Shown piece by piece: positions 4,464-44,361 of a stretch of 44,361 nt of DNA; within the stretch, counting starts at the first letter, position 1, and the number at the start of each line of letters is the position of its first letter. The notes under the pieces are model-generated. The model saw only the letters and a program-made list of their open reading frames with translations. It did not search any database and was not told the origin of the DNA. The position numbers were made by a program, and so were the translations under genes. The DNA comes from Candidatus Rokuibacteriota bacterium (lineage in GTDB: Bacteria; Methylomirabilota; Methylomirabilia; Rokubacteriales; CSP1-6), in contig JAUSJX010000126.1 of NCBI GenBank assembly GCA_030647435.1, forward strand, positions 1-44,361, written 5' to 3'.

Positions 4464-5414
4464 TCAAGTCACACGGGACCTCCTCCCCCGCCCTTCACTC
4501 TTCAGGTACGCCTGCGACTCATAGAACCACCGCACCGTGCGCTCGATTCCTTCCCGAAGCGGTGTAAGCCGGAACGAGGGCAGCAGGACCTTCACCTTCC
4601 CCATGTCCAGACACTTCGACAGCGCGCCGACGTACCGGCTCGTGTCGTATTCGATGCGCCCGGCGGGATAGCCGACGACCTCACAGATCACCTCCGCGAA
4701 ATGGCGGATCGTGTGCTCCTCCCCGGCCCCGATGTTTACCAGATCGTTGTCTCGCGACTCCGCCAGCCGGTACAGCGCGTCGACGAAATCGTCGAGGGAG
4801 ATCACCTCGCGTTTCTGATGGCCGTCGCCCCACAGCACCACCGGCTCGTCGAATTCCCGGCCCCGGATAATCTTTTGGATCAAGTCAAAGATGAAATGCA
4901 TCTGCCGGCCGTCGGTGTGGTAACCGGGCCCGTACAGCGTCGAAGGCACCGCGTAGAAATAGCGAAGGCCAAACTGCTTGTGCAGCGCGAGCAGGCCCGC
5001 GTATAGCATGCGCTTCGTCATCGCATAGGTGTACAGGCTCTCGATCGGCTCCCCGAGCATGTAATTCTCTTCCCGGAGCTCCGTGCCCGGCGCGTAGGAG
5101 CAGCTTGTGCCCATGCAGATCATCTTGGCCTGGGGCTGGCGCCGCTGCCACCACTCCAGCACGTTCGTGTTGATCAGTTGGTTCAGGACCCATTGCTCGC
5201 CGGGATGGCGCAGGCAGAAGTCGCCGGCCTGCGTCCAGGCTGCCAGATGGTAGATCTGATCGTAGGAAACGGGCTCCAGGTGGTCCAGGCTCTCACGGCG
5301 CGTCAGATCGCAGTTGCGCGAATTCAGCCGCGTCACCCGGTGGCTCCGCTCCTCGAGGTATCCGCAGAGCGCGCGCCCGAGGAATCCCGAGGCCCCAGTT
5401 ACCAGAATTCGCAA
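4464..5414 (-). CDS. GDP-fucose-synthase-like SDR epimerase/reductase
   Basis: This is a 316-residue extended SDR. The NAD(P)-binding loop TGASGFLG is at residues 7-14, and the catalytic S/Y/K set appears in GTSCSYAPG and YTYAMTK. The Cys in GTSC and a His in LYGPGYH stand where GDP-L-fucose synthase (Fcl/WcaG) has its Cys and His for 3,5-epimerisation. The likely substrate is therefore a GDP-4-keto-6-deoxy sugar, with the GMD-like enzyme at 13033-14004 as upstream partner. In a heptose locus the substrate could be the GDP-6-deoxy-heptose intermediate; this is inferred. The start is TTG, one base after the stop of the preceding methyltransferase gene, so translation is probably coupled. Confidence 0.85.
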   Translation of the reverse strand: MRILVTGASGFLGRALCGYLEERSHRVTRLNSRNCDLTRRESLDHLEPVSYDQIYHLAAWTQAGDFCLRHPGEQWVLNQLINTNVLEWWQRRQPQAKMICMGTSCSYAPGTELREENYMLGEPIESLYTYAMTKRMLYAGLLALHKQFGLRYFYAVPSTLYGPGYHTDGRQMHFIFDLIQKIIRGREFDEPVVLWGDGHQKREVISLDDFVDALYRLAESRDNDLVNIGAGEEHTIRHFAEVICEVVGYPAGRIEYDTSRYVGALSKCLDMGKVKVLLPSFRLTPLREGIERTVRWFYESQAYLKSEGRGRRSRVT

Positions 5415-5415
5415 C

Positions 5416-6618
5416 TCAGGCCACTCCGGGATCGACCGGAAAGTAGAATTCCACGCCCCGTTCCAAGAGCCCCCTGTTCCGCTCGAGGATCTCGCGCTTA
5501 AAATTCCACGCCAGCACGTAGTAGATGTCGGGAGGCTCCATGAGCTCGCTCTCCATCACCACCGGGATGTGCATGCCGGGCGAGTAGAGGCCCCGTCGCA
5601 GCTCATTCTTCTCCACTAGGCACTCAATGTAGTTCGTCCCCACGCCGAAGTAGTTCAGGAGCGTGTTGCCCTTGACGGGAGCACCGAGTCCGAACACCCG
5701 CTTGCCTGCCCGCTTCGCCCGCTCGAGGTATTCGAGCTCCTCCTCCTTCTTGCGAACGATCCTCCGGGAGAACTCCCGGTAGGTGCCGATGCGATTGCTG
5801 CCGTCAACGTCCTCTCGCCGCCGCATCTCCAGCAGGCGCGGGCTCGGTTGGCGTTGCCCCCGGTGCCCGACGAAGCCGACAATCGAGCCGCCGTGGATCG
5901 GCGCCAGGTACGCGTCGAACATGGCCAGCCCGTGGCGGTTCAGCAGCACCTCAACGGTCTCCAGGGTGTAGTAGAGCAGGTGCTCGTGGTAGATCTGGTC
6001 GAAGGCCAGGTTCTCCACGATCCGCTTCATGTAGAGAAACTGCACGACGAAGACACCATTCTCCTTCAGGCCCTCCCGGATCGCCTCGGTGACGAAATGC
6101 AGCTCCTCCAAGTGGAAGAACACGCCGGCGGCGTTGATCACGTCGTATCGCCGCCCGATCTCGCGCATCGTTTCGAGGTTGAAGAATCGGTTGAGGGTCG
6201 GTACCCCGGCCTGGACGGCGATCTGCGCGGTCGTCTTGGACGACTCCACGCCCAGCACCTCGTAGCCGAGGGCCTGGAAGTGCTTCAGCTGGGTGCCGTC
6301 GTTCGAGCCGATGTCGAGCACCGACTTCGTGTGGGCCCCCCGCAGAAACCGAGCATCCACCTCCTCGGCCACCCTCCGGAAGTGCTCGCTGAGCGACCTC
6401 GTCACTCCGGAGAGGTAGGTGTGGTCGCCGAACATGACCTCTTTCTTCACCGTGTAGTCCAGCTGCACCGTCGCGCATCCGTTGCAGTAGATGGCCCGCA
6501 GCGGATAGAACGGCTCGCGCCCAATCTCCTCCTTCTTCAGGAAGTGATTGCACCAGGGCTGGTGGCCCAGATCCACGACCGGATCCAGGTCCGCCGAGTC
6601 GCAAACGCGACAGAGCAT
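5416..6618 (-). CDS. Sugar C-methyltransferase with N-terminal zinc motif
   Basis: This 400-residue enzyme resembles NDP-sugar C-methyltransferases of the TylCIII/NovU type. An N-terminal zinc-binding module carries both pairs (CRVC at the start, CNGC before ATVQL). The SAM domain follows with LDIGSNDGTQL as motif I, then a C-terminal domain with GLGAPVKGNTLLNYFG and the HIPVV strand. The start is set at the ATG in 6616-6618, which overlaps the TGA of the upstream SDR gene by one base (TGATG); a longer in-frame form would run into that gene. It probably adds a methyl group to C-3 or C-5 of a keto-sugar nucleotide made by the neighbouring SDR enzymes. The exact sugar is unknown. Confidence 0.85.
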   Translation of the reverse strand: MLCRVCDSADLDPVVDLGHQPWCNHFLKKEEIGREPFYPLRAIYCNGCATVQLDYTVKKEVMFGDHTYLSGVTRSLSEHFRRVAEEVDARFLRGAHTKSVLDIGSNDGTQLKHFQALGYEVLGVESSKTTAQIAVQAGVPTLNRFFNLETMREIGRRYDVINAAGVFFHLEELHFVTEAIREGLKENGVFVVQFLYMKRIVENLAFDQIYHEHLLYYTLETVEVLLNRHGLAMFDAYLAPIHGGSIVGFVGHRGQRQPSPRLLEMRRREDVDGSNRIGTYREFSRRIVRKKEEELEYLERAKRAGKRVFGLGAPVKGNTLLNYFGVGTNYIECLVEKNELRRGLYSPGMHIPVVMESELMEPPDIYYVLAWNFKREILERNRGLLERGVEFYFPVDPGVA

Positions 6619-13032: not shown

Positions 13033-14004
13033 CTACAGAGTCGGAACCCGAACCCGACGACGCCAGTACTCGAGTGTATCCAGGAGGGTCCGCTCGAAGG
13101 AGATTGCGGGCTGCCAGCCGAGCTCCTTGCGGACCTTGGAGGCGTCACCGAGGAGGTGGGGTACGTCGGAAGGACGGAGCCGCGCGGGGTCCTGCTTCAC
13201 TACAATTCCCGAGACTCTGGCTTCACGCAGGAAAAAGTCGAGAACCTCCTGGATCGTCCAGCTCCGGCCGGAGCAGAGGTTGTACACCTCGCCGGGCTCT
13301 CCACGCTCTAGCAAGAGCCAGTAACCCTGGACGATGTCACGCACGTCAGAGTAGTCCCGCCGGGCCTCAAGGTTTCCCACATGGACCACCGGCTCGCGGA
13401 GCCCCGCCTCGATCTCGGCGATCTGCTTGGCGAAGTTGGAGGTCACGAAGACGTCGCCCCGGCGGGGGCCCTCGTGGTTGAAGGCGCGGGAACGGACGAT
13501 GGGCAGGCCGTAGCTCTTCCAGTACTGGTAGCCCATCAAATCCTGTGCGACCTTGCTGACCGCATAGGGGGAGAGCGGGCGCAGCGGGTTCGTCTCCTTG
13601 ATCGGTAGCTCGTCCTCATGGACCAGACCATATTCCTCGCTGGAACCGATCACGAGAAACCGAGGCTTCTTCGGGCGAACCCGGATCGCCTCCAGGAGGT
13701 TCACCTGACTCACCGTGTTCGTGTAGAACGTCTCAGCCGGCGTCTGCCAGGAGGCCGCCACGAAGCTCTGGGCGGCCAGGTGGACCACGTAGTCCGGATT
13801 CGCCGCCTCCACCAAGCCCTGCACCGAGGAAAGGTCGCGGAGGTCGGACTCGATCAGCTGGATCTGCGATCGGAGGTGCTCGATGTTCTCGGTCCTGCTC
13901 CGCCAGCGAATCGAACCGATCACCTCGACCCCTTTGCCCAGGGCATACTCGGCGAGATGACTACCGACGAACCCGGTGATACCAGTGATCAGCACTCGCG
14001 TCAT
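13033..14004 (-). CDS. GDP-mannose 4,6-dehydratase-like SDR
   Basis: This 323-residue extended SDR starts MTRVLITGITGFVGSHL. It has SSEEYGLV and SPYAVSKVAQD carrying the catalytic Ser/Glu and YxxxK. The stretch RSRAFNHEGPRRGDVFVTSN is a hallmark of the GMD/Rmd branch, followed by RRDYSDVRD and YNLCSG. The likely reaction is dehydration of a GDP-mannose-type sugar to the 4-keto-6-deoxy form. Close relatives act on GDP-manno-heptose in capsule loci that also carry gmhA and hddA, so GDP-heptose is a realistic substrate here. The start at 14002-14004 was chosen over longer forms because the Rossmann strand begins there. Confidence 0.85.
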   Translation of the reverse strand: MTRVLITGITGFVGSHLAEYALGKGVEVIGSIRWRSRTENIEHLRSQIQLIESDLRDLSSVQGLVEAANPDYVVHLAAQSFVAASWQTPAETFYTNTVSQVNLLEAIRVRPKKPRFLVIGSSEEYGLVHEDELPIKETNPLRPLSPYAVSKVAQDLMGYQYWKSYGLPIVRSRAFNHEGPRRGDVFVTSNFAKQIAEIEAGLREPVVHVGNLEARRDYSDVRDIVQGYWLLLERGEPGEVYNLCSGRSWTIQEVLDFFLREARVSGIVVKQDPARLRPSDVPHLLGDASKVRKELGWQPAISFERTLLDTLEYWRRRVRVPTL

Positions 14005-14070
14005 TGCCACGCCATTGCTCCTAAGAGGAAAGAACGGCATCTCACTTGTCTGCCTCCCGTTACCCGTCTC

Positions 14071-14310
14071 AGCGCTTAACGATCTCGATCGTCGGACATG
14101 GGGAAATAATACCACCTCCCCTGTCGAGCGACTCTCTTTCCCTTTCGAGGAATTCCCTCTTGAAGTGCCACGGCAGCACAAGGTAGTAATCCGGCTTCAT
14201 TGCTCTCGACTCGCCCTCGCTGATGATCGGGATGTCCGTTCCCAACGCCCGTGCGCCATGTTTCCCCAGGTTCCGGTCGGCCGCATGCTCGATGATGGTG
14301 TTGTCAAGAA
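14071..14310 (-). pseudogene. C-terminal remnant of a sugar methyltransferase
   Basis: Downstream of the intact methyltransferase gene the minus strand reads an open stretch ending DIPIISEGESRAMKPDYYLV, LPWHFKREFLERE, and GGGIISPCPTIEIVKR before a TGA. It aligns without gaps to the last 70 or so residues of the upstream enzyme (HIPIISEREARSMKPDYFLV and onward). Homology fades upstream of about 14310. Just before it, at 14384-14370, lies an AGGAGG box and an ATG that opens only a 16-codon frame (MRYEGVCF..) ending in TAG. The relic is the tail of a second, diverged paralogue whose body has been deleted. Confidence 0.65.
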
Positions 14311-14383
14311 ATGCAATATTACTAAAAAGGATCGCACACCCTCCAGATAAAACATACCCCTTCGTAACGCATAGCGCCCTCCT

Positions 14384-15622
14384 TCAAACAATCTCAATTT
14401 CTGGAAATGGGAAGATCATCTTTCCTCCGTTTGCCAGATATTCTTTTTCACGATCGAGTATTCCAGCTTTAAAGTGCCAAGGTAAAACGAGGAAATAGTC
14501 CGGTTTCATCGAACGAGCCTCGCGTTCGGAAATGATTGGGATATGTGTCCCGGGGGTGAAACAACCGAACTTATCCGGGTTGACGTCCGCGATCGCAGGG
14601 ACATCCCGCTCCGAGAACCCGCAGAACTGCAAGACCACATTGCCCTTAGTTGACGCCCCGTAGCCAAGCACTGTTTTCCCATCGGCGACCAATGCGCGGA
14701 TCAAACGAACCAGGTCCTCGCGATGCCGAAATGCCCTCTCTTCGAATTCGCGGTATGGTCTCGGTGTGCTGAGTCCCATACGCTCTTCCTGTTCAAGAAG
14801 CCAGTTGATCACCGCGTCATTCGCCTTAACCTTTCGATTTCCCACCTTAGCCACGGAAACCGCAAAACTGCCGCCATTCACCGCGTTCATCACAACATCG
14901 ACGATCTTGAGCCCCGCCATTTCCATGATTGTCTTAACTACGCCGAGCGAGTAATACTCCAAGTGTTCGTGGCAGATGGTGTCGTACGAGTTGAGACGTA
15001 ACATCGACGGCATGTAGCTCTGCTCAAAATGCCAAATGCCGTCTTCAGCAAGCACTGATTCGATCTCGCAAGCGAATTTTGCGGGGGCTTCAAGATCGTA
15101 AAACATCGCTATCGAGGTGATGATTTTTGCAGGCTTCGACTGAACGGACCGGTAGGCTGCCGAGGAGAAAAAGTCCGGAACGAGTCTAATATCGTTGCTG
15201 TAATACTGTCCGAACTTCCGACCCGTCGGGTCGATTCCGACTCGCTGTATGCCGGGGGTGCGGTAAGCCCTGAGCGTAGTCGCATCGTTGCTGCCGATGT
15301 CGAGCACTATGTCTCCTTGACCCAATGGTATCGTCCGCTCTAAGTAGCGGACCTTTTCTGTCAGATGATTCACCATCGACTGGTTCAGCCCCGACCGATA
15401 CCCGTAGCTATTGCCATACACTTCGTCAAGATCATAGGAGTGCCTCAGCTGGAGCAATCCGCTGTCGGGGCACCACACTAGCTCCAAAGGCCCCGACGTC
15501 ACCTCCACGTCGCGGCTATTCGGGAAAACTCCCGTCAGCACCTGATTACCCAGGTTGAGTACCGAAACCAGACGGCTACTACCACTGATGCGACATTCTT
15601 TGATCTCACGGTAATTCGTCAT
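14384..15622 (-). CDS. Sugar C-methyltransferase with CxxS zinc-motif remnants
   Basis: This 412-residue protein is of the same family as the enzyme at 5416-6618. The SAM domain has VLDIGSNDATTLRAY as motif I. The C-terminal domain includes GYGASTKGNVVLQFCG and HIPIISEREARSMKPDYFLV. Its N-terminal zinc module is altered: both expected CxxC pairs read CxxS (C10-R-I-S13 and C51-P-D-S54), each explainable by a single T-to-A change (TGT/TGC to AGT/AGC). It may no longer bind zinc tightly or may be decaying. It lies 25 bases after the tri-modular glycosyltransferase gene, in the AT-richer part of the locus, and is followed by the tail of a paralogue. Confidence 0.82.
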   Translation of the reverse strand: MTNYREIKECRISGSSRLVSVLNLGNQVLTGVFPNSRDVEVTSGPLELVWCPDSGLLQLRHSYDLDEVYGNSYGYRSGLNQSMVNHLTEKVRYLERTIPLGQGDIVLDIGSNDATTLRAYRTPGIQRVGIDPTGRKFGQYYSNDIRLVPDFFSSAAYRSVQSKPAKIITSIAMFYDLEAPAKFACEIESVLAEDGIWHFEQSYMPSMLRLNSYDTICHEHLEYYSLGVVKTIMEMAGLKIVDVVMNAVNGGSFAVSVAKVGNRKVKANDAVINWLLEQEERMGLSTPRPYREFEERAFRHREDLVRLIRALVADGKTVLGYGASTKGNVVLQFCGFSERDVPAIADVNPDKFGCFTPGTHIPIISEREARSMKPDYFLVLPWHFKAGILDREKEYLANGGKMIFPFPEIEIV

Positions 15623-41584: not shown

Positions 41585-41842
41585 TCAGGCGGGCTGCTGG
41601 GCGATGCTGACGTACTTGTCGTCGCCCTTGCGCTCGAAGCGAACGTAGCCGTCGGAGGTGGCGAACAGCGTGTGGTCCGTGCCGAGCCCGACGTCGACGC
41701 CCGCCTTGAAGCGGGTACCGCGCTGGCGCACGATGATGCTGCCCGCCGTCACGAACTGCCCGCCGAAGCGCTTGACGCCCAGTCGCTGCGAATTCGAGTC
41801 GCGGCCGTTGCGGGAACTGCCGACACCCTTCTTGTGAGCCAT
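41585..41842 (-). CDS. rpmA: 50S ribosomal protein L27
   Basis: This 85-residue protein begins [20 protein letters not shown] and contains [19 protein letters not shown] and the [14 protein letters not shown] strand, all characteristic of L27. Its N-terminal tail reaches toward the peptidyl-transferase centre. No extra N-terminal cleavage extension is present. It starts 4 bases after rplU. Confidence 0.98.
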
Positions 41843-41846
41843 CGCG

Positions 41847-42158
41847 CTATGCCTCGATCTTGGTGATGCGGACTGCGGTCATGATCTGCCGGTGCCCGCG
41901 GTGCCGGCGGTAGCCCTTCCTGCGCTTGAACTTGACCACGAGGACCTTGGCGCCCTTCTTCTCGGAGACCACCTGGCCCGTGACCTTCGCGGCGGCAAGC
42001 GCCTTGGGCTCAACGGTTACCTGCCCGTCGTTCTCGACCATGAGCACCTGCGTGAACTCCACGGGCGAGCCGGCCGCCTTGTCGAGGCGCTCGACCTTGA
42101 TCACCTGGCCCGGAGCCACCCGGTATTGCTTCCCGCCCGTCGCGATGACCGCTTCCAT
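41847..42158 (-). CDS. rplU: 50S ribosomal protein L21
   Basis: The protein has 103 residues from the ATG at 42156-42158, starting [20 protein letters not shown]. It ends with the L21 tail [16 protein letters not shown] and ITKIEA. A longer in-frame start is rejected because L21 always begins at this Met. An AGAGG box lies 7-8 bases before it. It is the first gene of the rplU-rpmA-obg-proB-proA-nadD-rsfS run. Confidence 0.98.
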
Positions 42159-42243: not shown

Positions 42244-43110
42244 TTAGCTGTTCGAGCTCTCGCTCAGCGGCTTGCCGCGCCACATGACCGGGGAGGTCTC
42301 CCAGCGGTACGGCAGCTCGACGTGCCCTCCGGGGGTCGTGATGGACGCCAGCGCGGCAAGCGTGTCCCGCAGGACGGCCAGCTGCTTGTCGCGGTTTCCC
42401 GGCTCGCCCAGCATGCTGCCGCGAGGGAAGCGTGCGTGCGCCCAGCGGGGAGGCATGACACGCCCGGTCGCCCCCGGGTTGTTGGAGAGTGAGATGGTCG
42501 GGATGCCCCAGGCCTCGATCTCGCGCTGCACCAGTCCGCCGGACTGGTGGCAGATGGGTCAGACGGGTACGAGGAGAACCGCGTCCGCGCCCTCGGCCTT
42601 GAGCCGCGAGGCGATCTCGGGCGCCATGGTCTCGGCGATGTCGGCCGCCCGGGTGCAGTAGCCCATCAGGCTATAGTGGGTCGGCGTGAGACCGCCGATC
42701 TCGCCGCCCGCTTCGAGCTCGCGCAGCCGGTCCAGCGGGAAGATCGTGTTCATGTCCGCACGCGCGGTCTCGTGGGGGAAATGCTCGTGCGAGATGGCGA
42801 GCGTCTGGATCGCGGTCCCGGCCGGGATGGCGCGGAAGCTCCAGTCCCCGTCGGGAGCCTTGCCGTCGAAAGGGAGGTCGTGGCCCGTGCGGTAGAGGCC
42901 GCCCGTGGTGACCACGCCGATGCGCAGGGCCGCGAGCGGCTTCATCAGCGGCGTCCAGGGCGTCTCGGTGAAGGCCGGCCAGGGATAGCTCTTGAAGGCC
43001 GACGCGTAGTCGTGCTGCTCGATCAGCGGCGCGGCCCCGGGCCACCACGCGGCATAGCGCGACCGGAAATCGGCGATCCAGCGCGTATCCGCCTTGGCGC
43101 GCGCGGTCAT
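42244..43110 (-). CDS. Selenoprotein B-type (glycine/proline reductase family) with in-frame UGA
   Basis: The protein has 288 residues if the TGA at 42559-42561 is read as selenocysteine (Sec184). The reading frame continues through it without shift: AEGADAVLLVPV-U-PICHQS, then GGLVQREIEAWGIPTISL. The UxxC motif (Sec184, Cys187) and the surrounding sequence match the GrdB/PrdB-related selenoprotein B family of glycine, sarcosine, betaine and D-proline reductases. This is the stand-alone form found in non-fermenting bacteria, whose substrate is unknown. A strong hairpin begins 6 bases after the UGA. The ATG overlaps the stop of the sigma-factor gene (ATGA). A simple gene caller would split it in two or call it broken. 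Confidence 0.85.
42526..42553 (-). promoter_or_regulatory. Bacterial SECIS-like hairpin
   Basis: On the minus strand CTG-C-CACCAGTCC, loop GGC, GGACTGGTG-CAG forms a 12-bp stem with one bulged C. The loop starts 19 bases after the UGA codon and opens with G. Distance and loop G fit the published rules for bacterial SECIS elements that recruit SelB and Sec-tRNA. The hairpin lies inside the coding sequence. Confidence 0.75.
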
Positions 43111-43757
43111 GCGGCCGCCATGTAGCGCGAGAGGCGCTCGCGCAGGAAGAGACGCGAGCGGTGCACGCGTGACTTCACCGCGGGCAGGCTCAGACGCAGC
43201 GTCTCGGCGATCTCCGGGTTCGACAGCCCTTCCACATCATGCATGAGGAAGGCCGTCCGGTAATCGGCGGGGAGGTCGTTGATCGCCGTCGTCAGCACCG
43301 TCCTGAGCTCAGTCTGGAGCGCCGGTTCCTCGACCTTGCCCGACCAGTCGGCGACCGGCTCGACATGTTGGCGGTGCTCGTCGAAGGCGGGCTGGAGATC
43401 GTCCCACAGCACCTCGTTGCGCCGGCCGCGCCGCCCGCGAAGCTTCTGGTACGCCGTGTTGGCCGTGATCCGGTACACCCAGCTGCCGAAGGCCGACTCG
43501 CCCTTGAAGGTGTCGATCTTGCGCGCTGCGGTCCAGAGCGCGTCCTGGGCGACCTCCTCGGCATCCTGCTCGTTGCCGGTGATGCGGATGGCCAGGCGAT
43601 AGACGCGGTCGCCGTAGGTGTCGAGCAGCAGCTCGGCCGCCCCGGCATCGCCCCGGCGCAGCCCTTCCAGGAGGGCAGCGTCGCGATCGACGCGCGGGGC
43701 TCCGGCCGGCCGCGGCTCGGGTTCGGTCATCGTCTCCGCTTGTGGGACGCTCATCAT
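43107..43757 (-). CDS. ECF-type RNA polymerase sigma factor
   Basis: The protein has 216 residues from the ATG at 43755-43757, which follows an AGGAGAG box. Region 2 reads YGDRVYRLAIRITGNEQDAE, EVAQDALWTAARKIDTFKGE and SAFGSWVYRITANTAYQKLR. Region 4 reads INDLPADYRTAFLMHDVEGL and SNPEIAETLRLSLPAVKSRV. The arrangement fits a SigE-like ECF factor. No anti-sigma gene is adjacent; instead its stop overlaps the selenoprotein start, which suggests that the two are made together. A longer start at 43787 is possible but lacks a ribosome-binding box. Confidence 0.92.
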   Translation of the reverse strand: MMSVPQAETMTEPEPRPAGAPRVDRDAALLEGLRRGDAGAAELLLDTYGDRVYRLAIRITGNEQDAEEVAQDALWTAARKIDTFKGESAFGSWVYRITANTAYQKLRGRRGRRNEVLWDDLQPAFDEHRQHVEPVADWSGKVEEPALQTELRTVLTTAINDLPADYRTAFLMHDVEGLSNPEIAETLRLSLPAVKSRVHRSRLFLRERLSRYMAAA

Positions 43758-43831: not shown

Positions 43832-44361
43832 TCAAGACCGGATGTACAGGGTCAGGTGTCGCTTGAGCTCGTCCACGCATTGCTCCATCACCGTGATGTC
43901 CTTTGTCACCTTGCTCATGAGGATGGCGCCCTCGAGGCTTGCCACGAGGAAGTGGGCCGCCCCCTCGGGATTGCAGTCTGCGCTGAGCCGCCCGGACGCC
44001 TGACCCTGGCGCAGCGATCGCGCCAGTGTCGCCCGCCACTGGACGAAGATCTCGGCCAGCCGCTGCCTGAAGCCCTCGTGGACGTCGGACAGCTCGGAGG
44101 CGAGATTACCGATGGGGCAGCCTCCGACGCAGTTGCGCTGGCGCAGGTTGTCGAGAACACGGTCGAGGAAGCCGTGGATCTGCGCTACGGGATCGCGATC
44201 GGGATCAACGAAGGACGGTTCAAGGGTGCGCTCGAGAAAGCCGCGCACCAGCCGGTCGATGATGGCGTAGCAGAGCTCTTCCTTGCTCTTGAAGTGGTAG
44301 TAGAAGTTGCCCTTGCCCACGCCGCTCTCGCGGAGGACATCGTCGAGCGAGGTGCAGTGGT
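43832..44361 (-). CDS. TetR-family transcriptional regulator (5' end outside window)
   Basis: About 176 C-terminal residues are visible. The readable start is TSLDDVLRESGVGKGNFYYH, followed by FKSKEELCYAIIDRL, the recognition end of a TetR DNA-binding domain. An all-helical ligand domain follows (CVGGCPIGNLASELSDVHEG, VASLEGAILMSKVTKD) of the YcdC/TetR_C_6-like kind. The stretch after GNLASELSD resembles regulators that sense small toxic or reactive compounds, but no ligand can be named. The gene stops 74 bases before the sigma-factor start and its first codons lie beyond the right edge. Confidence 0.88.
   Translation of the reverse strand, partial: HCTSLDDVLRESGVGKGNFYYHFKSKEELCYAIIDRLVRGFLERTLEPSFVDPDRDPVAQIHGFLDRVLDNLRQRNCVGGCPIGNLASELSDVHEGFRQRLAEIFVQWRATLARSLRQGQASGRLSADCNPEGAAHFLVASLEGAILMSKVTKDITVMEQCVDELKRHLTLYIRS

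Follow-up and report, generated by a model that had tools for sequence, protein, structure and literature searches.

A predicted selenocysteine-containing relative of GrdB and PrdB, probably stand-alone, in a conserved TetR-ECF-rplU block of uncultured Rokubacteria

Near one end of the window (the whole stretch of DNA analysed here, a 44,361-nucleotide contig of a Candidatus Rokuibacteriota bacterium; GenBank assembly GCA_030647435.1, contig JAUSJX010000126.1), two open reading frames lie in the same frame of the minus strand and are parted by nothing but a TGA. Is this TGA a stop, or is it decoded as selenocysteine (Sec), and, if it is decoded, does the joined protein act by itself or as a subunit of D-proline or glycine reductase? 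The correct reading matters for annotation, as the standard code (table 11) splits the gene into two separate ORFs. The host, which we take to belong to the Methylomirabilota by GTDB naming, is represented by a genome (G000) of 5.79 Mb that is assembled as 176 contigs, has a completeness of 98.48% and a contamination of 2.07%, and includes the window as contig C126.

The gene and its in-frame TGA

The preliminary description of this DNA had joined the two open stretches into a protein reading VLLVPV-U-PICHQS, and translation reproduces both the shared frame and the joined product, which has 288 residues with U184 lying within VLLVPVUPICHQSGG (Table 1). The filter passed five coding-like frames of the window that are joined across a TGA, and among these the Sec gene has the strongest 42-nt fold (-18.6 kcal/mol, versus -8.4 to -12.1 for the other four). 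One of those four, at 41587, is just the stop codon of rpmA.

Table 1. Positions of the features in the window and in the related loci discussed in the text.
Feature	Sequence	Position	Strand	Remarks
Predicted selenoprotein gene, PF07355 / selenoprotein-B related	window	42244..43110	-	288 aa with U184; ATG at 43110, single in-frame TGA 42561-42559, terminal TAA ending at 42244
TGA decoded as selenocysteine (the U in UPIC)	window	42559..42561	-	conservation; Cys replacement in homologues
SECIS-like hairpin	window	42526..42553	-	stems of 4 and 8 bp parted by one bulged C; GGC loop (42538-42540); fold and covariation
ECF sigma factor gene	window	43107..43757	-	stop overlaps ATG of Sec gene by 4 nt (ATGA)
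TetR-family regulator gene	window	43832..44361	-	cut by window edge; longer G001 copy matches Pfam TetR_N and TetR_C_13
rplU (ribosomal protein L21)	window	41847..42158	-	first gene of downstream rplU-rpmA-obgE-proB-proA
GrdB-like gene with one TGA	C106 (L055)	match 48354-48827
PF09338 subunit	C106 (L055)	49042-50214
DUF5940 protein	C106 (L055)
GrdA with one TGA	C106 (L055)	51846-52286
FMN reductase gene and Sec-form relative	L077	4226-4873 and 4887 onward		Alkalicoccus urumqiensis

An assignment to the GrdB/PrdB-related family had been proposed, and at that level it agrees with the profile scores: the protein reaches 54.4 bits against Pfam PF07355 (GRDB; gathering cut-off 22, scored with C for U). 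All five NCBIfam matches fall below their own cut-offs. The best of them is PrdB (TIGR04483), at 163.1 bits versus an equivalog cut-off of 300; selenoprotein B (TIGR01918) is a narrow miss at 62.4 versus 65.45 bits (again with C for U), and GrdB (TIGR01917) reaches 50.4 versus 602.2 bits. In an alignment of 29 homologues, with U written as C, U184 and C187 are invariant in all 29 rows, as are H108, D119, P125, P182, R196, E199, T205, P221, R222, P229, and G235. A structure model built from 25 sequences (mean pLDDT 91.3, pTM 0.91) places U184-C187 in an alpha/beta domain, at the start of helix 187-200 and following strand 177-181. A phmmer comparison with solved structures gave chance-level matches only (best E 0.31), Foldseek found nothing in the PDB at E <= 0.001 (best E 0.031), and the top VIA-align matches (best Z 8.0) are common alpha/beta folds, the LacI type included.

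All four components of the Sec machinery, whose absence had been named beforehand as a refuting condition, are found in the source genome. Its tRNA-Sec (71.3 bits; ARAGORN anticodon tca) lies together with selA and selB on contig C56, and selD is on C98. (The selD match, G000:C98:94090-95046, has one in-frame TGA itself, so SelD is probably a selenoprotein too.) Across the family, selA is above the cut-off in 51 of 57 genomes; it is present in 14 of the 15 genomes that carry an orthologue of the window gene, the exception being a genome that is 77% complete.

The homologues carry the same codon at the same site. Searching 40 genomes, with the source genome among them, yielded 63 matches spread over 29 genomes; 61 of these matches contain exactly one TGA, and the two without it are fragments (query residues 34-143 and 213-271) that do not reach residue 184. 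When 30 of the 63 matches were fetched as loci, the TGA lay within a UxxC motif in every one; 29 of these 30 fit the pattern used in the search, and L037 has its UxxC in another context, GUGSCHRCG. Orthologues at E <= 1e-60, present in 15 of the 57 family genomes and 59-100% identical, have one TGA in all 15 cases, always as UPxCHQS. A scan of named genomes gave 27 loci, 17 with TGA (six of them on the same contigs as loci of the 40-genome search), 8 with Cys (TGC or TGT), and 2 that are fragments outside the site. The eight Cys forms among the 25 informative loci should not be read as a frequency, since the scan patterns contained a Cys codon at the site. The Cys forms come from one Desulfobacteraceae MAG and seven proteobacterial loci. 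The check proposed beforehand, an alignment of homologues at the UGA position, thus came out in favour of read-through, with TGA in the close relatives and Cys in eight distant ones. Because selA is present in six of the eight Cys-form genomes, the Cys state is unexplained by loss of the Sec machinery. In one Cys locus, L085 (Rhizobiaceae MAG, 5001-5699), an in-frame stop lies ahead of the site, about 70 codons into the match, so that either the gene is broken or the sequence is in error, perhaps.

A tree built from 45 proteins groups the 12 Rokubacterial orthologues in a single clade (100/100) and requires two changes for the Cys state; several rows sit on long branches, which makes the deeper joins unsure. 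(Eight rows, namely six same-contig duplicates, L087, and L088, had been dropped, and L085 was left out.) In comparisons with seven orthologues, dN/dS is 0.12-0.25 after the TGA and 0.17-0.54 before it. The later part has the lower value in six of the seven, the exception being the nearest orthologue, that of G001 (0.25 after versus 0.17 before). By these ratios, selection on the predicted coding sequence downstream of the TGA is purifying.

Two groups of observations concern the wider family. The Rokubacteriaceae loci L028, L029, L030, L031, and L033 form a Sec paralogue group with UxxCTHT instead of UxxCHQS, whose members extend about 135 residues further past the UGA than the product of the window gene. 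The neighbours of paralogues and distant relatives are varied: rhodanese and CoA-transferase genes adjoin the Cys form of Lacisediminimonas (L080), TauD and amidohydrolase genes lie close to the C66 paralogue, and in Alkalicoccus urumqiensis (L077; Bacillaceae, selA present) a Sec-form relative begins 13 nt behind a gene for an NADPH-dependent FMN reductase, possibly an electron donor pair. Across seven loci of Cys homologues and paralogues no common partner was found, and neighbour genes were dropped as a clue to the substrate.

The hairpin downstream of the TGA

The preliminary description had also drawn a 12-bp hairpin with a GGC loop, 6 bases downstream of the TGA. Folding finds this element as 28 nt with 12 pairs (4 + 8) interrupted by one bulged C; its first paired base is the sixth after the TGA, within the distance range expected between a UGA and a bacterial SECIS hairpin, and the same stem is present within a larger fold of 71 nt. 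Its energy is unremarkable. Over 71 nt z is -0.11, and over 42 nt the native fold is equalled or bettered by 48 of 1000 synonymous recodings, so that energy was dropped as proof of a SECIS. Some Sec relatives fold, at their most stable, no better than their recodings do (for L074, 805 of 1000 are as good). Because energy by itself is weak, the case for the hairpin rests on its kept register and on covariation.

Both can be measured. The six apical pairs, taken in a fixed register, are formed in 144 of 150 cells across 25 distinct Sec genes, whereas synonymous redrawing of the codons at the codon usage of the window gives 99.3 +/- 4.3; none of 5000 redraws is as high. In the eight Cys genes the register pairs number 31 of 48 versus an expected 23.8 +/- 2.2 (P 0.0006), a partial excess that is possibly a relic; L079, which is among these Cys forms, reaches a strong fold through other pairs (5 of 1000 recodings as good). 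Within the 8-pair helix, 91.5% of cells in the 25 Sec sequences are paired versus 75.0 in shuffles, and 30 cells show changes on both sides versus 9.3 in shuffles, these sequences being kin and their cells no independent events. The helix covariation score is 0.397 versus 0.088 when shuffled, and at most 0.061 when the helix is slid by 1-3 columns; further pair types in the helix show no excess over shuffles (8 versus 8.4). Changes of G-C to C-G, and of U-A to A-U or G-C, accompany amino-acid changes (HQS/GGL to THT/GGV or NQA/VGL), which argues that pairing is kept even where the protein differs. By conservation and covariation, the predicted hairpin goes beyond chance. At gathering scores, Rfam reports one tRNA in the window and nothing else.

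Gene neighbourhood and possible partners

The Sec gene lies in a block whose downstream members, judged by the look of their sequences, are putatively rplU, rpmA, obgE, proB, and proA. Besides the window, the gene order TetR-ECF-Sec is found in 12 of 12 Sec-bearing loci (11 of them distinct, since L117 is the L068 contig), and rplU-rpmA-obgE comes next in 11 of them, L048 being the exception because its contig stops after the Sec gene. From the 42 genomes that have no match at E <= 1e-60, 12 loci were fetched, and all 12 read TetR-ECF-rplU, with 89-193 nt between ECF and rplU, except for 402 nt in L114. This last locus (G062, 2560-2680) holds the scar of a Sec gene between ECF and rplU: 31 residues can still be recognised at its start, the UGA-bearing middle has disappeared, and the genus mates G010 and G061 have the whole gene. 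Because the block occurs both with and without the Sec gene, and because an ECF orthologue (E <= 1e-40) is present in 55 of the 57 family genomes versus 15 of 57 for the Sec gene, the TetR-ECF-rplU-rpmA-obgE-proB-proA block is best described, on these gene orders, as fixed and the Sec gene as an optional cassette within it that has been lost at least once. The coupling to the ECF gene that had been put forward stands as far as adjacency and the ATGA overlap are concerned, and from this overlap the two genes are likely to be co-transcribed. It does not stand as a specific partnership, and the ECF sigma factor was rejected in that role on the same distribution. A short open frame separates the ECF gene from the Sec gene (or from what is left of it) in L012, L013, and L114, and an LFPLGLGD or LFPLGFAD stretch recurs close to the beginning of this frame; the overlap of the two genes in the window leaves no space for it.

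Among the neighbours read at the window end and in related loci there is no GrdA, GrdC, GrdD, or PrdA, in keeping with what had been remarked for the window. Farther afield, PrdA (TIGR04480) has no match in the source genome (98.5% complete, 176 contigs) and is above its cut-off in none of 25 genomes, with weak matches in two; PF09338 (GrdE/PrdA-type subunits) is found in seven of the 25 and GrdA (PF04723) in five. This search took in six of the 15 orthologue carriers (G000, G001, G010, G013, G014, and G015). The sister genome G001 (99% complete, orthologue 95% identical) has neither PF09338 nor PF04723, and the same is true of G010, G013, and G015; G014 has PF09338, and GrdA is absent from it. 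In the source genome the PF09338 and GrdA matches lie on contig C106 only, with none on the window's contig. The grd-like locus on C106 (L055, 43000-53500; Table 1) is separate from the window gene.

The enzyme had been called stand-alone. This holds at the locus and in G001, where known partners are lacking; it does not hold for the source genome as a whole, which has GrdA and GrdE on C106, and a partner may act in trans there. Because four carriers keep the orthologue and have neither PF09338 nor GrdA, the Sec gene likely acts by itself.

Alternative readings, mechanism, and known systems

Three other explanations deserve weighing. If the TGA were a true stop, the gene would be decaying or split by a nonsense mutation. 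A standard stop does break the frame and leaves the halves as separate ORFs under table 11, and the absence of the gene from 42 of 57 family genomes, together with the scar in L114, also speaks for this reading. Such decay is nevertheless extremely improbable, given a TGA shared by all 15 orthologues across the full range of identity and by distant paralogues, low dN/dS on either side of it, a covarying hairpin, and substitution by Cys elsewhere. On this comparative evidence the TGA is a Sec codon and not a nonsense mutation. A second possibility accepts Sec and makes the protein no enzyme at all but a redox sensor that regulates the ECF sigma factor, as an anti-sigma-like partner. The Sec gene lies directly downstream of the ECF gene and overlaps it; upstream translations of eight orthologues, inspected by eye, reveal no classical anti-sigma gene between the two; a UxxC motif could sense oxidants; and a paralogue in G021 adjoins an ECF homologue too, oriented towards it (G021:C8, ECF homologue 13520-14083 on the plus strand, Sec paralogue 14356-15051 on the minus strand). 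An ECF orthologue that occurs in nearly every family genome, most of which lack the Sec gene, makes a sensor of this kind very unlikely, as does the finding that no ECF gene stood out beside paralogues and distant relatives (seven loci, ten proteins in Pfam).

The protein could instead be a true D-proline or glycine reductase subunit with its partners encoded elsewhere in the genome. PrdB is its best family match, and C106 has TGA-bearing GrdA, GrdE-like, and GrdB-like genes. However, the score lies under the cut-offs of PrdB, GrdB, GrdF, GrdH, and TIGR01918, the C106 locus possesses a GrdB-like gene of its own, G001 retains a nearly identical orthologue with no PF09338 or GrdA, and PrdA is above its cut-off in none of the genomes searched; a subunit role is quite unlikely. 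Taken together, the observations make it highly probable that the window encodes a Sec-decoded, GrdB/PrdB-related, stand-alone oxidoreductase carried as an optional cassette. As judged from sequence comparison, this is a real Sec-containing redox protein of a known family, present without the usual partner proteins in some uncultured Rokubacteria.

How such an oxidoreductase might work can be outlined from its motif and superfamily. Co-transcription of the Sec gene with its ECF neighbour is probable, and codon 184, a UGA, is on the comparative evidence decoded as Sec with the aid of the downstream hairpin and the SelA/SelB/SelC/SelD set. Sec184 and Cys187 would constitute a redox pair at the start of a helix that follows a beta strand. 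The selenol of Sec184 would attack a small substrate, a selenenylsulphide would form between Sec184 and Cys187, and a cellular thiol system would reduce it again. With no pyruvoyl subunit (PrdA/GrdE) and no acceptor GrdA, the protein would be an oxidoreductase that acts alone, distinct from the amino-acid reductases of Stickland fermentation. We tentatively propose, as a possibility somewhat less favoured than its opposite, that the selenoprotein-B superfamily contains a class of stand-alone, single-subunit Sec reductases that need neither a pyruvoyl nor a GrdA partner and, in bacteria other than strict anaerobes, work apart from Stickland fermentation; that the present carriers are not strict anaerobes is our assumption. 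If this is true, many environmental proteins filed as PrdB belong to that class and are misnamed. Because carriers have the gene and no PrdA over the cut-off, a D-proline reductase function of PrdB-like selenoproteins is not to be assumed. The question of their role without PrdA is real, yet not peculiar to this locus; the window gene offers a clean single-protein case for what the selenoprotein-B domain does alone.

A search of the literature for this Rokubacteria gene found no paper on it; related proteins are in print. The marine metagenome sets include 42 PrdB-like UxxC Sec genes from the Sargasso Sea (PMC1088965) and 235 Sec and 110 Cys PrdB-like homologues, filed under pfam07355, from the GOS collection (PMC2398784). 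As described in the portions of these papers used here, they resemble the window gene in the UxxC motif, in their filing as PrdB, and in the occurrence of Sec and Cys forms. They are, however, reads filed as PrdB, whereas the window gene has a known context in which PrdA was not found. A 2026 review (PMC13188914), in the passages relied on here, cites one reference (Deng et al.) both for a survey of >44,000 groundwater MAGs and for a MAG of the Methylomirabilota in which 63 selenoprotein genes are predicted. That selenoprotein-rich MAG shares the phylum of the window's host, but neither a gene family nor a locus is given for it in those passages. Compared with PrdB itself (TIGR04483), window residues 49-271 align to profile positions 17-235 of 238; the protein differs in scoring below the cut-off, in having 48 residues ahead of the match versus 16 in the profile, and in a genome that lacks a PrdA match. 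With GrdB, GrdF, and GrdH (PF07355, TIGR01917/01918) it shares the C-terminal part bearing UxxC, at a score above the Pfam gathering threshold, but those models span 431-435 positions versus 288 residues here, and the window locus has no GrdE or GrdA. PrdB-like UxxC selenoproteins and selenoprotein-rich Methylomirabilota are thus already in print, and the window gene adds one member to them.
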